This document shows, in pieces, positions 25,163-29,293 of a DNA stretch of 29,293 nucleotides. Position 1 is the first letter of the stretch; every line of letters starts with the position of its first letter. The position numbers and the translations under genes are program-made. The notes below the pieces were generated by a model. The model was not told the DNA's origin, did not search any database, and worked only from the letters and a program-made list of their open reading frames with translations. Source of the stretch: a virus. Where the stretch lies: the IMG/VR virus record IMGVR_UViG_3300046459_000076, positions 1-29,293 of that record; one strand, 5' to 3'.

Positions 25163-25194
25163 AACAAGAAAAGAGGCCCGTTTAACAGGCCTCT
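25162..25194 (-). terminator. Convergent intrinsic terminator between late and replication/modification units
   Basis: A 7-bp stem (25172-25178 with 25188-25194, AGAGGCC/GGCCTCT) with a 9-nt loop. On the minus strand it is followed by TTTCTTGTTTT, a good U-tract, so it ends the leftward unit; on the plus strand it follows the last late gene by 9 bases. Positions 25195-25237 show no gene. Confidence 0.8.
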
Positions 25195-25420: not shown

Positions 25421-25740
25421 AGTGTGACTCGGGCGACTATCTGTTCGAGGTTGCGTCGCATGCTATAGAGTCTGTTGACGTAACCTACAAGCATGTCGTG
25501 TAGCGGGGAGAACGACTGTTTGTGAGCTACGTCAGTCTGTACCGGCGGAGTTGCCGGCGCGAGGACTGGTTGAATCCTTCCTACCAGGTCGCCGATCATA
25601 CCATCTAGCATGTCGATCCCTTGGGACAACTCGGTCAATTGTTGGGCTATTACACCCTCTGTACAGTCAGGTCCACGTACGGCCATATTTCCTTGTTCCA
25701 TAGCCGACCTTGGATTCATCTTCGCTCCGTAATCACTCAT
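25417..25740 (-). CDS. Hypothetical protein, helical, 107 residues
   Basis: The ATG at 25738-25740 follows GGGAGGTGAGC on the minus strand, an excellent ribosome-binding site, so a longer upstream frame (to 25866) is rejected. The protein overlaps the preceding gene by eight bases. The first ~25 residues are polar and probably flexible (MSDYGAKMNPRSAMEQGNMA). Then come an amphipathic helix (IAQQLTELSQGIDMLDGMIG), a Pro/Thr linker and a second helix (LHDMLVGYVNRLYSMRRNLE). Two helices joined by a linker may form a dimeric bundle. No family is recognised, and the relation to the upstream DNA-modification genes is unknown. Confidence 0.7.
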   Translation of the reverse strand: MSDYGAKMNPRSAMEQGNMAVRGPDCTEGVIAQQLTELSQGIDMLDGMIGDLVGRIQPVLAPATPPVQTDVAHKQSFSPLHDMLVGYVNRLYSMRRNLEQIVARVTL

Positions 25741-26230
25741 GCTCACCTCCCGTGCAAGTGTGGACTTCATTCGGATTGCCGTGTGATACGGTATTGAACC
25801 GCACTCGACACTTGGTACATCTGAACCACTCGCCATCTGCGTCTCCTCCTTCATAAGTATAACCAATCCAACCCTTCGGATCGCGCTCTGCCCCGTAGGA
25901 CTTAACTGAGGGGTGGAGTTTGTCCTCGACCCACTCTACTACCGTCTGTTGCCCCTTCTTCAGTTCCGTGTCCGGTCTATACATTGGCAGCGGGTCGGGA
26001 TCAGGATTTAACTTGTCCCCGTTCTCCACCAGTTCGATGTACTTCTCGATGGCGTGCTGAGCCTTCTTCAAGTCCTCGACGCCACCCTTGTCCCTCCACC
26101 GTTCGACCCACTTGGTAATGATGTACTGGAACGGGTCGTACTGAAGACGCCATGCCCTATCCCAGTGTTCTTCGCCGCCCCTCTTGTAGTGGTCCCCGCC
26201 TACTTGGCGGTCATTCGCCTTGTTATCCAT
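25733..26230 (-). CDS. DUF3310-type protein with C-terminal zinc-ribbon-like tail
   Basis: The start is the ATG at 26228-26230, with GGAAGGAGG on the minus strand; the longer frame to 26251 begins at a TTG. The 165-residue product contains the DUF3310 signature (VGGDHYKRGGEEHWDRAW, ~10-27, and WRDKGGVEDLKKAQHAIEKY, ~45-64), a domain common in phages near replication and nucleotide-metabolism genes. The C-terminal third adds a zinc-ribbon-like segment: FRCTKCRVRF supplies a CxxC, with a His/Cys pair near VHTCTGGEHE. It overlaps the end of the ThyA-like gene by 31 bases. The function of DUF3310 is unestablished; the extra tail suggests nucleic-acid or partner binding. Confidence 0.75.
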   Translation of the reverse strand: MDNKANDRQVGGDHYKRGGEEHWDRAWRLQYDPFQYIITKWVERWRDKGGVEDLKKAQHAIEKYIELVENGDKLNPDPDPLPMYRPDTELKKGQQTVVEWVEDKLHPSVKSYGAERDPKGWIGYTYEGGDADGEWFRCTKCRVRFNTVSHGNPNEVHTCTGGEHE

Positions 26231-27192
26231 CGTGCGCAAGCCTCCTTCCAATCCTCGTCGTGAATGTTACCTACATGGTGTAAGGCCAAGTGGTCGTCGC
26301 CGTCCTTATGAGCCATCCAGGCGTTGAACATAGGGCCAGCGTTATCCCTCAAGATACGGCACCGGGGCGAGCTAGAGTCCAGGAAGAAATCTGGATCCTC
26401 TACAAAGTCTGCAGCCTCGCCCCAGTCGAAGTTGTCACTACTGAACTCCCACCTCAAGAAGGTCGGGTTGCGCCTATACCAGTGATCCGGCGTTTCGCTG
26501 TACTTATCTGTCCCTCCCCATCCCTCGTACACGTGAAGGTTGTTCGTAAACTGATACAAGTTACCCATCTTGAGCCCTACCGTATTGGCTATATACTCAA
26601 GAAGGATTCCAAAGTGGACGTAGTTAGCCCCAAGCATTCCCCAGACCATGTCGTTCGACCGATTGAGGACGGTCATGTGGAGGGAATCCTGAACCACCCG
26701 GAGGTACAACTGGGTATTACAGGGTAAGTCCTTGGAGTCTACGTCGAGGTCAAGCATTGGATCCCACATCGAGATCACTAGTCGTCTGGATCCGGGATCG
26801 GATTTGAGACGGTGAACAACGGTGTCGATTTGGTCAATTTCGAACGCTTGCCTCCAACGGTAGCCATAAGCGCCATGGAGAGTGATTCCATCGTCGGAAT
26901 ATTGACGAATTTGTTTGGCGAATCTGGAGGGAAAATCAACGTTTTCCGACCCGGAAAGCATCCAGATGGCTTCCATGTAGTGGAAAAACGGGTTAGCATC
27001 CCGTTTATCATCGAACAGTACTCGACAACCCGGAACTGCGGAGCACAGAAGGACGGGATACTGAAAGGCGCGGGCTGGTCCATTGCGAGTTTCCTCCACT
27101 TCTGTAAATTGTTCCTTGACCCTCTGCATTTCGCTGTAGGCGTCGTTGATATCTTGATACGTGAAGATCATCGGGCCGACGTCATTTAGCAT
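26200..27192 (-). CDS. ThyA-family enzyme, probable dUMP hydroxymethylase (or thymidylate synthase)
   Basis: About 330 residues; ThyA-fold motifs are present: HGAYGYRWR (~106-114), SRRLVISMWDP (~135-145), the catalytic cysteine in LPCNTQLYLRV (C158) and the substrate-binding NRSNDMVWGMLGANYVHF with the Asn (N190) that in thymidylate synthase recognises the uracil ring; then NNLHVYEG. In the ThyA family the cysteine attacks C6 of dUMP and methylene-tetrahydrofolate supplies the C1 unit. ThyA-like dUMP hydroxymethylases use the same scaffold to make 5-hydroxymethyl-dUMP. The Asn argues against dCMP hydroxymethylation. The genes for the two enzymes acting on hmdU lie directly upstream, favouring hydroxymethylation. 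The start is in a TGATG overlap with a GGGAG site; an in-frame GTG one codon upstream is possible. Confidence 0.8.
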   Translation of the reverse strand: MLNDVGPMIFTYQDINDAYSEMQRVKEQFTEVEETRNGPARAFQYPVLLCSAVPGCRVLFDDKRDANPFFHYMEAIWMLSGSENVDFPSRFAKQIRQYSDDGITLHGAYGYRWRQAFEIDQIDTVVHRLKSDPGSRRLVISMWDPMLDLDVDSKDLPCNTQLYLRVVQDSLHMTVLNRSNDMVWGMLGANYVHFGILLEYIANTVGLKMGNLYQFTNNLHVYEGWGGTDKYSETPDHWYRRNPTFLRWEFSSDNFDWGEAADFVEDPDFFLDSSSPRCRILRDNAGPMFNAWMAHKDGDDHLALHHVGNIHDEDWKEACARWITRRMTAK

Positions 27193-28007
27193 CACGCTCT
27201 CCCGTTGTAGCCAGATCGAGGAAGCCCCTCACCGTTCTTAACCCTGAGATACTTATCCAGTTCGCAGAGACAGTTCTGTACGTCCTGGAGACATAGATTC
27301 AGGTCGAGAGCCTTTCTGACTGCAATCAGCTCAGCAAGCCCTGCTTCTTGGCGGACTTTGAAGGTAATGGGTCGTCCGTGAATGCGATTAAGACCTCGCA
27401 TTGAACCTGGTCCGACTGCGGCCCAGTTCCACCAGTCATCAGCGGAACGGAGATGCCGAGTGTGCTTAAGATCTGCGATAATTTGTCCAGCGATAAAAGG
27501 CCCGACACACGGATATTTGTTTCCAATTATCGTCTCCCAAGATTTCTGGATTGAGTTAGGGTCAAGTTTCGGCGGGTTCTCAAAATACGACTTGGCATTA
27601 CCCAGAACCCAGTCGTTCTTACTGACGCCGGTGGGGCCAGCGGTTATCATGTACGCGCCGGTATACACTTTCTGTCCCCGAGACATCATCTTATCCATCA
27701 CGGCCTTGATCTCCCAGGGTTTCCACTCCACCGGGAACCCGATCGCGCTAAGAGTGTCGGGCCAGTTGATCGTCCGACCGAGCATGATCGCCGCGATGAA
27801 GTTGGGCTCGTCCCAGTACTTCGGGTGGCGCCAATTAAGGGCGAACCACTTGGTTACGTGGTCGTCCTCTCGGTGGACATTACAGAACTTGTAGTTCTGT
27901 AGAATCGGGTCGTTGGTCCAAGGCTTAGGTTTGAATGCCTTAGCTTCCCTGATCTCCTCGCGCTCTCTGATCCAATAGGACAGAGCTTGAAGCACATCTT
28001 CTCTCAT
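27192..28007 (-). CDS. Alpha-glutamyl/putrescinyl-thymine pyrophosphorylase-like enzyme (aGPT-PPlase family)
   Basis: This 271-residue protein matches the DNA base-modifying family that displaces pyrophosphate from 5-(pyrophosphoryloxymethyl)-uracil in DNA and attaches an amine or amino acid. Diagnostic segments visible are PWTNDPILQNYKFCNVHRE (29-47), VGPFIAGQIIADL (168-180, helix-hairpin-helix-like), DDWWNWAAVGPGSMRGLNRI (190-209) and the closing LQDVQNCLCELDKYLR (240-255) with GEGLPRSGYNG. The fold is distantly related to helical DNA glycosylases. The start overlaps the kinase stop (ATGA) with GGAGG upstream; the stop overlaps the ThyA-like start. The family assignment is strong; which nucleophile is attached cannot be read. 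Confidence 0.85.
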   Translation of the reverse strand: MREDVLQALSYWIREREEIREAKAFKPKPWTNDPILQNYKFCNVHREDDHVTKWFALNWRHPKYWDEPNFIAAIMLGRTINWPDTLSAIGFPVEWKPWEIKAVMDKMMSRGQKVYTGAYMITAGPTGVSKNDWVLGNAKSYFENPPKLDPNSIQKSWETIIGNKYPCVGPFIAGQIIADLKHTRHLRSADDWWNWAAVGPGSMRGLNRIHGRPITFKVRQEAGLAELIAVRKALDLNLCLQDVQNCLCELDKYLRVKNGEGLPRSGYNGRA

Positions 28008-28591
28008 GTGGCCTCCGCTTCGTCAGCAAGCCGGAGCATATCAAGGATCTGATCTACTGGCCGCTTGTAATCAATGTAGGCGACTTCTCGCCCAAGTTCG
28101 TACTTCAGTTTACGGTACAGTCGCTCGATCTTGGGGATACGCCCACGCGTGTTCTCCTCATTGAGAGGCTTGGTATTCCCAGCATCGAACCGACGCTGCT
28201 TCACTCGTTCGATACAGACCTCGATGGGTGTATCCAGGAAAGCAAAAACGTGCGATTTCCCAAATCTCTCTGACGCCTTGCCCATCGCGCCATAGCACTC
28301 AGAGCCAAGAAGCCCCTCGTACAGAACGTGCCCAAGGTTGGCGTAGCGATCCAACATTCTAGCGTGGTTAAGGGTTCCTGCAACCGCATCGAGTCCTCCG
28401 CACCAGGATTTACCGTATGGCCCGAGAACCACTACTGGCTTCATGACTCCGGGCAAGTGGAGGAGGTGAGCTTCAATCCTCCCTGAGTCGGTGTTAATAC
28501 AGTCCGCCGGTACAGGGTCGGACAGCTCTAACAGGGCTCGGACGATGGTGGTCTTACCTGAGCCGGACGTTCCGTGGATTTTAATGATCAT
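28004..28591 (-). CDS. P-loop kinase, probable 5-hydroxymethyl-dU DNA kinase
   Basis: This 195-residue small kinase has Walker A GTSGSGKTT (7-15), a middle motif VVLGPYGKSWCGGLDAV (54-70) characteristic of the phage hmdU DNA kinase family, a beta-strand with VLYEGLLGS (89-97), and a lid-like arginine-rich part (FLDTPIEVCIERVKQRR, 118-134). The family pyrophosphorylates 5-hydroxymethyluracil in DNA, producing the substrate for the aGPT-PPlase encoded next. Its order before aGPT-PPlase and the ThyA-family gene matches the known pathway set. The start is ATG with AAAGGA eight bases upstream, within the end of the helicase gene. A generic nucleotide kinase is the alternative, but the context argues against it. 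Confidence 0.82.
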   Translation of the reverse strand: MIIKIHGTSGSGKTTIVRALLELSDPVPADCINTDSGRIEAHLLHLPGVMKPVVVLGPYGKSWCGGLDAVAGTLNHARMLDRYANLGHVLYEGLLGSECYGAMGKASERFGKSHVFAFLDTPIEVCIERVKQRRFDAGNTKPLNEENTRGRIPKIERLYRKLKYELGREVAYIDYKRPVDQILDMLRLADEAEAT

Positions 28592-29293
28592 TTCTCATTC
28601 CTTTGATGGCATCGCTGAAGGCGGTAGCTGTCCTCTCTTTATTGAGGAGAGTCCTGGTTACTGTACGGTCGAGAGTCTTGTCCGCCATAATTCGGTGAAC
28701 GAACACTCGGTTGGAGGGCTGACCTTGTCTCCAGACTCTACAGATCATCTGGTTATAGGTGTCGTAGTCCCACGGAAGCCCGTACCAAGCTATGTGATAG
28801 CACGATCCTTGTAGATTTAGCCCGTGGCCCGCCGACGCAGGATGACCGAGCAACACCGGGATTGTTCCTGCGTTGAATTGGTCGACCATACGGTCCAGCT
28901 TCGTCCCAGATGCTCCAGTGAGACATGGCGCATCGGGGAATACACGTCTGATCCTTTCAAGATCGTGCTGGAACTCATACCCAACAAGGAGAGGCTTCCC
29001 TTGGAGCTGTTCCACCAAATCGACCAATGCCTGAGTTTTGAGGTCGTGGACGAAGTGATCGATATGGTTCTCGTCGTACACTCCTCCGTTCGCAACTTGT
29101 CGGCATTTACTTCCAACTGCAGCCGCATTAACCGACATGATAACCTCATCCCCCACCTCCGCTAGAAAGTCATCCTCGAACTGTTTATAAATCTTGCGAC
29201 TCGCCGGGTCCAGTTCGATCATTATGTCGTTAAAGATCAACTCAGGCATGTCGAGGTGATCCTCGGCATCAAGTCTCATAACGATGGGCTTGA
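28581..29293 (-). CDS. SNF2-like (SF2) helicase/ATPase, C-terminal part, 5' end outside the window
   Basis: The reading frame is still open at the window edge (codons before the ATG at 29277-29279 read KPIV), so this is a C-terminal fragment of 236 residues. The second RecA-like domain shows motif V (LLGHPASAGHGLNLQG) and motif VI (QMICRVWRQGQPSNRV). The start of the fragment, RLDAEDHLDMPELIFN, and ELDPASRKIYKQF match the region after the first lobe of SNF2-family proteins. These enzymes move along duplex DNA; in phages they are found in replication/recombination modules. Its stop overlaps the kinase start by 11 bases, so it is co-expressed with the modification genes. Family membership is clear; the specific role is not. 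Confidence 0.88.
   Translation of the reverse strand, partial: KPIVMRLDAEDHLDMPELIFNDIMIELDPASRKIYKQFEDDFLAEVGDEVIMSVNAAAVGSKCRQVANGGVYDENHIDHFVHDLKTQALVDLVEQLQGKPLLVGYEFQHDLERIRRVFPDAPCLTGASGTKLDRMVDQFNAGTIPVLLGHPASAGHGLNLQGSCYHIAWYGLPWDYDTYNQMICRVWRQGQPSNRVFVHRIMADKTLDRTVTRTLLNKERTATAFSDAIKGMRNDH

Follow-up and report, generated by a model that had tools for sequence, protein, structure and literature searches.

In the phages M6, ViI and phiW-14, a kinase phosphorylates the 5-hydroxymethyldeoxyuridine (hmdU) of the DNA before its further modification, thymidine is replaced only in part, and the restriction-resistant sites carry TG/TC, which is attributed to the hmdU DNA kinase (PMC6449724). 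A common operon logic is displayed by M6, SN1, PaMx11, CN2 and Pam3, and the amino acid:DNA transferases of known structure, PaMx11 gp46 (8z2m/8z2n, the latter titled 5-phosphomethyl-dU glycinyltransferase in the PDB) and M6 gp51 (25qc), belong to family PF18724. Parts of the pathway have also been published for podoviruses, as in the HTVC023P-type pelagiphages of clades V/VIII/IX, which carry ThyA and aGPT-PPlase1 near polA and for which thymidine hypermodification was proposed (PMC9599517). The window analysed here is the entire virus record IMGVR_UViG_3300046459_000076 (29,293 bases), which most probably contains the downstream part of an M6/PaMx11-type thymidine-hypermodification operon in a putative P22-type podovirus. 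The system is thus already known, and the window contributes a compact, possibly tailoring-free form of it among small podoviruses, in which a helicase is embedded and tailoring genes are not seen. In contrast to the pelagiphages, reported with ThyA and PF18723 only (and a glucosyltransferase in some; PMC9599517), the window also contains the kinase, and its relatives a PF18724 gene.

Gene order and predicted chemistry of the operon

The operon runs on the minus strand, 5' to 3', from a SNF2-type helicase, present as its C-terminal part only because the record ends inside the gene (28581..29291; PF00271 1e-7, phrog_62 6e-67), through a P-loop kinase of 195 residues (28004..28591), a PF18723 protein of 271 residues (27192..28007), a ThyA homologue of 331 residues (26200..27195) and a small DUF3310-like protein (25733..26230) to two further small open reading frames. 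Every neighbouring pair among the first five genes overlaps, by 11 nucleotides at the helicase/kinase junction, by ATGA between kinase and PF18723 and by GTGATG between PF18723 and ThyA, while the 3' end of the ThyA gene overlaps the next gene, whose ATG is at 26230; translational coupling is therefore plausible. The preliminary description of this DNA had likewise seen three consecutive, coupled leftward genes (28591 to 26200), and both the overlapping junctions and the motifs it quoted, GPYGKSWCGGLD, PWTNDPILQNYKFCNV and VGPGSMRGLN, were found. The profile search that it had proposed placed all three proteins above cut-off, in PF18748 (30.0 bits against 27), PF18723 (132 bits against 25) and PF00303 (85 bits, 5e-24, against 24), and thus the kinase and the 271-residue protein do not fall into unrelated families. 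A chance assignment of these genes is excluded, as the scores pass the cut-offs and the gene order is the same in related viral contigs. The thymidine-hypermodification cassette of that description therefore stands, with its profile matches, 33-41% identity to M6-type proteins and shared gene order, except for the role it had given to the 271-residue protein.

Among viral contigs, 12 relatives were found initially and 80 loci with a profile, the members of the close clade being 60-68% identical in PF18723. With PF18724 supplied by the clade relatives, the M6/Yuavirus operon has PF18724, HMUDK, PF18723, a ThyA-type hydroxymethylase and a DUF3310-like gene in the same order, at 33% (PF18723) and 41% (ThyA) identity to the window. 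In contrast, M6 is a siphovirus and has genes for a pyridoxal-phosphate (PLP) enzyme, a radical S-adenosylmethionine (radical-SAM) enzyme, Nmad5 and an HD protein, whereas the podovirus-type clade is without PLP, radical-SAM and Nmad5 genes and has the SNF2 helicase between PF18724 and the kinase. PaMx11 shares the core of kinase, PF18723, ThyA and PF18724, its glycinyltransferase gp46 (8z2n) being homologous to the product of the relatives' upstream gene, but its flavin enzyme gp47 and acetyltransferase gp48 were not found in the clade. The P22-like podoviruses P26218, a cultured phage isolated on Rhodoferax, and ctfPj964 have polA, a helicase, PF18724, HMUDK, ThyA, HD and DUF3310 genes, no PLP or radical-SAM gene and a related TerL; unlike the clade, they have no PF18723, their helicase precedes PF18724 and their kinases are just 28-29% identical. 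Their PF18724-HMUDK-ThyA-HD cassettes (L024:9773-12780 and L027:20063-23175) are mostly annotated as hypothetical and contain no tailoring genes.

From family membership, gene order, predicted fold and the PF18724 gene of the relatives a pathway can be proposed in which every chemical step is a prediction. The ThyA homologue would hydroxymethylate dUMP, and the resulting hmdUMP would be raised to the triphosphate by the DUF3310 protein and/or host kinases and incorporated into DNA by the phage polymerase. The P-loop kinase would then phosphorylate hmdU in DNA at preferred sites, and the PF18724 transferase, encoded beyond the record end and present in the relatives, would displace the phosphate, putting an amino acid or amine in its place. 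The PF18723 protein, whose predicted fold is glycosylase-like as is that of the transferase, would assist, probably as a protein that flips the base out or offers it to the kinase or the transferase. The 195-residue protein is a predicted 5-hmdU DNA kinase with an intact P-loop, and the residues G10xGK13xT15, G57, Y59, G66 and D68 do not vary when it is aligned with M6, PaMx11, Pam3, P26218 and the clade relatives, the P-loop and GxY...GGxD residues as a whole being invariant or nearly so against M6 and PaMx11. Kinases of this type are labelled 'terminase small subunit' in the RefSeq records of M6, PaMx11 and P26218 and in PHROG 800 (phrog_800), for instance M6 gp54 (L026:12254-12817), which Pfam assigns to PF18748 at 7.7e-18, and P26218 gp15 (L024:10603-11181); judged by such family matches, the label is a propagated misannotation.

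The PF18724 transferase of related loci and its substrate

Every close-clade locus that extends far enough (11 of 11) has a PF18724-type gene of approximately 300 codons next to the helicase on its upstream side; these loci represent about seven independent lineages (L002/L078, L003, L005, L008, L009/L010/L011, L012 and L041/L042). Pfam recognised it as PF18724 in L002, L003, L008, L012 and L078, three of them above cut-off; the genes of L005, L009, L010 and L011 are 48-55% identical to that of L002, and those of L041 and L042 were picked up by a profile built from the other clade copies. The L002 transferase matches 25qc (2.5e-22) and 8z2m (1.4e-17), and all 18 of the 18 residues invariant in the family (M6, PaMx11, phiW-14, P26218 and clade) are kept in the aligned clade transferases. 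Since the window helicase is 81% identical to the 470-residue helicase of L002 (L002:5225-6637), which has PF18724 immediately upstream, the transferase gene is probably located just past base 29293, starting some 700 bases beyond the record end. The preliminary description had considered that tailoring genes might lie beyond 29293; the 11 relatives point to a transferase there, and the gene content of relatives argues against hidden tailoring genes.

Some observations weigh against assigning the locus to an M6/PaMx11-type operon. The PF18748 score of the kinase lies only just over its cut-off. No PF18724 gene occurs within the 29,293-base record, which stops inside the helicase, the gene being present only in relatives, and Pfam by itself sees PF18724 in about half of the upstream genes of those relatives. 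Tailoring genes, moreover, may lie in unsequenced parts of the genomes or belong to unrecognised families.

The group attached by the transferase may differ from that of PaMx11. The phiW-14 base is alpha-putrescinyl thymine and that of M6/Yuavirus is 5-NedU. The same pathway ending in a polyamine or an amino acid other than glycine, comparable to the putrescinyl thymine of phiW-14, is possible, though less likely than not, as the best database match of the clade transferase is gp109 of Delftia phage phiW-14 (32.5% identity against 28.6% for M6) and the clade, which forms one group in the transferase tree (100/100), is separated by a split of 94/95 from the glycine group of M6 and PaMx11. That placement, however, is below the threshold of strong support in an unrooted tree, and the cluster that contains the clade along with phiW-14, two Acinetobacter phages and P26218 is unresolved; phiW-14 itself differs in its 157-kb genome, and its link to the clade in the tree is equally unresolved. 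The sequences of the transferases thus hint at a substrate other than glycine.

Tailoring genes and the end product

The interval between PF18724 and the kinase is occupied by PLP and radical-SAM genes in M6, SN1 and CN2, by a flavin enzyme and an acetyltransferase in PaMx11, and by the SNF2 helicase in the clade. No PLP, radical-SAM, flavin-enzyme or acetyltransferase gene was detected in the window or in any clade locus, and another 69 genes of relatives, for the most part non-structural and partly from contigs of 35 and 40.7 kb, had Pfam matches only to ligase, exonuclease, primase-type, HD, HNH and small families and to no tailoring family; as the genomes of the relatives are possibly incomplete, this negative is strong and not final. 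Small intergenic open reading frames were considered as hidden tailoring genes and rejected, those of some relatives (62-84 residues) being too small; one of them, L012:10946-11200, scanned on its own, belongs to no Pfam family.

That no tailoring enzyme follows within the window, as stated in the preliminary description, is correct, and the upstream side is missing from the record. Because no tailoring follows, the end product is probably the untailored primary adduct of an amino acid or amine. The earlier proposal of a primary adduct as the final base is thus probable, with the difference that the adduct would be made by PF18724 and not by the 271-residue aGPT-PPlase. A more specific version, in which the clade pathway ends at the primary adduct of a divergent PF18724 transferase with a novel amino acid or amine, giving an undescribed DNA base, with the SNF2 helicase translationally coupled, is rather unlikely in its entirety. 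Tailoring enzymes encoded elsewhere in the genome, leading to a 5-NedU-like or acetylated product, are unlikely: the record is incomplete at 29.3 kb, the genomes of the relatives may be fragments too, and Pam3 and some other contigs have several kb between the kinase and their tailoring genes, but neither the clade loci nor the 69 scanned genes contained any tailoring gene of the M6 or PaMx11 kind. Should the primary adduct prove to be the final base, such phages would reveal the product of the transferase alone and whether an undecorated adduct suffices against restriction. Palindrome avoidance, compared between sites with and without TG/TC in the window and its relatives, displayed no consistent difference and was uninformative.

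The PF18723 protein, the ThyA homologue and flanking genes

The PF18723 profile covers residues 4-258 of the 271-residue protein; the family is currently named HMUDK_hel in Pfam, while the older name aGPT-PPlase1 persists in phage records. The AlphaFold model of the protein (predicted local distance difference test score, pLDDT, 89.6; predicted template modelling score, pTM, 0.85) aligned with VIA-align at Z 10.8 to the archaeal 8-oxoguanine glycosylase 3knt and about equally to 8z2n, and the leading rows, with Z up to 10.8, are mostly helix-hairpin-helix (HhH) glycosylases or 8z2n, together with DUF2419 queuine enzymes. Since for helical proteins a Z near 10 is a moderate value, the likeness of PF18723 to HhH glycosylases holds at the level of the fold only; Foldseek returned nothing at E<=0.001, and a search of PDB sequences with the protein gave no relevant match. 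Similar motifs are located at matching C-terminal positions in the two families, DVQNCLC at 242 in the PF18723 protein and EVETILC at 241 in the PF18724 transferase. Profile-profile comparison of PF18723 with PF18724 gave a single C-terminal match of 15 columns at a probability of 0.8%, and because this match is weak the link between the families rests on fold and motif position, not on sequence. Thus, PF18723 looks in the model like a sister fold of the PF18724 transferase, with an HhH-glycosylase-like architecture. The fold alone does not reveal the function, as Z to 8z2n equals Z to plain glycosylases.

The preliminary description assigned the exchange of phosphate for an amine to the 271-residue protein, and with this role the window would contain the complete pathway. 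The predicted fold shared with the solved glycinyltransferase, the C-terminal motif and the historical name speak for such a role, which is nevertheless quite unlikely and is not retained here: the two solved transferases are PF18724, a different family; M6, PaMx11 and the clade have PF18723 alongside PF18724; relevant solved proteins are not matched in sequence; and the fold score favours 8z2n no more than glycosylases. Moreover, tblastn did not find PF18723 in P26218 and ctfPj964, both of which carry kinase and PF18724, and PF18723 is therefore not required wherever these two occur. The preferred reading is a putative accessory protein that would flip or present the base. In addition, many viral contigs with PF18723 gave no profile match to the kinase or to PF18724, and 26 of the 80 PF18723 loci, counted where at least 3.5 kb of upstream sequence is available, have neither within 6 kb; for this reason 'HMUDK helical domain' may describe the family too narrowly. 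PF18723 should thus not be named a transferase nor, being widespread where no such kinase is detected, be tied to the kinase alone.

Contigs without detected HMUDK or PF18724 encode PF18723 proteins approximately 40% identical to that of the window (L064:7980, L066:7977, L067:7968, L071:7962, L074:7980 and L084:7989), with neighbours that include a TET-associated glycosyltransferase (L064), a radical-SAM/SPASM enzyme (L067) and D12/MT-A70/Dam adenine methyltransferases (L066, L084 and L071). A distant relative (26%) at L113:5526-6353, in a contig of a Candidatus Amesbacteria metagenome-assembled genome, was the sole match when a genome collection was scanned for a host or prophage.

The ThyA homologue matches phrog_5131 (3e-88), is 41% identical to the Yuavirus deoxyuridylate hydroxymethyltransferase and has CMP 5-hydroxymethylase (5jnh/5b6d, 6e-21) as its closest solved relative, before all thymidylate synthases. 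It retains the catalytic cysteine C159 and N191, the asparagine of uracil-specific enzymes, at whose equivalent position T4 dCMP hydroxymethylase has Asp, and is without both tryptophans of thymidylate synthase (W80/W83 in E. coli), a loss common to M6, PaMx11 and CMP hydroxymethylase. These residues fit the predicted dUMP hydroxymethylase. An ordinary thymidylate synthase with unrelated or decayed neighbours is highly improbable, for although the protein is a PF00303 member and NCBIfam offers thymidylate synthase models only, it lies far under every NCBIfam cut-off for these, lacks the tryptophans and has CMP hydroxymethylase as its best solved relative, and its neighbours are all intact with an order conserved across the seven or so lineages.

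The DUF3310-like protein matches phrog_5839 (4e-15) and phrog_236, 'nucleotide kinase' (7e-10), with Pfam DUF3310 below cut-off; its gene has the same position in the relatives, M6 and RHph_I65, and the protein is possibly an hmdUMP/hmdUDP kinase. In some relatives a YfbR-like HD phosphohydrolase, which perhaps trims competing dTMP/dTTP, is encoded between the ThyA and DUF3310 genes (L009:5155-5721 and L012:12159-12680); M6 also has an HD gene, and the window and L002 do not.

A DNA search of window positions 1-25000 against known phages gave no match. The P22-like virion of the preliminary description is plausible from the TerL of close relatives, 74-77% identical to that of the window and 37-38% identical to those of two P22-like podoviruses, while portal (phrog_12082) and coat (phrog_9953) are known by PHROG family only. 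Rightward structural genes extend to approximately 25,160, and the leftward early operon takes up the record from approximately 25,240 to its right end. Between these convergent genes a terminator-like hairpin with a 10-bp stem and a T-rich tail is located at 25172..25194 on the minus strand, in a region where the hairpin count was little above that of shuffled sequences (7 against 4.2). The structural region encodes a glycine-rich domain protein (PF21722; 22049-22777) and a virion protein of 1261 residues with an SLT transglycosylase domain (PF01464; 16653-20438), which from this domain is probably a peptidoglycan-cutting ejection protein.

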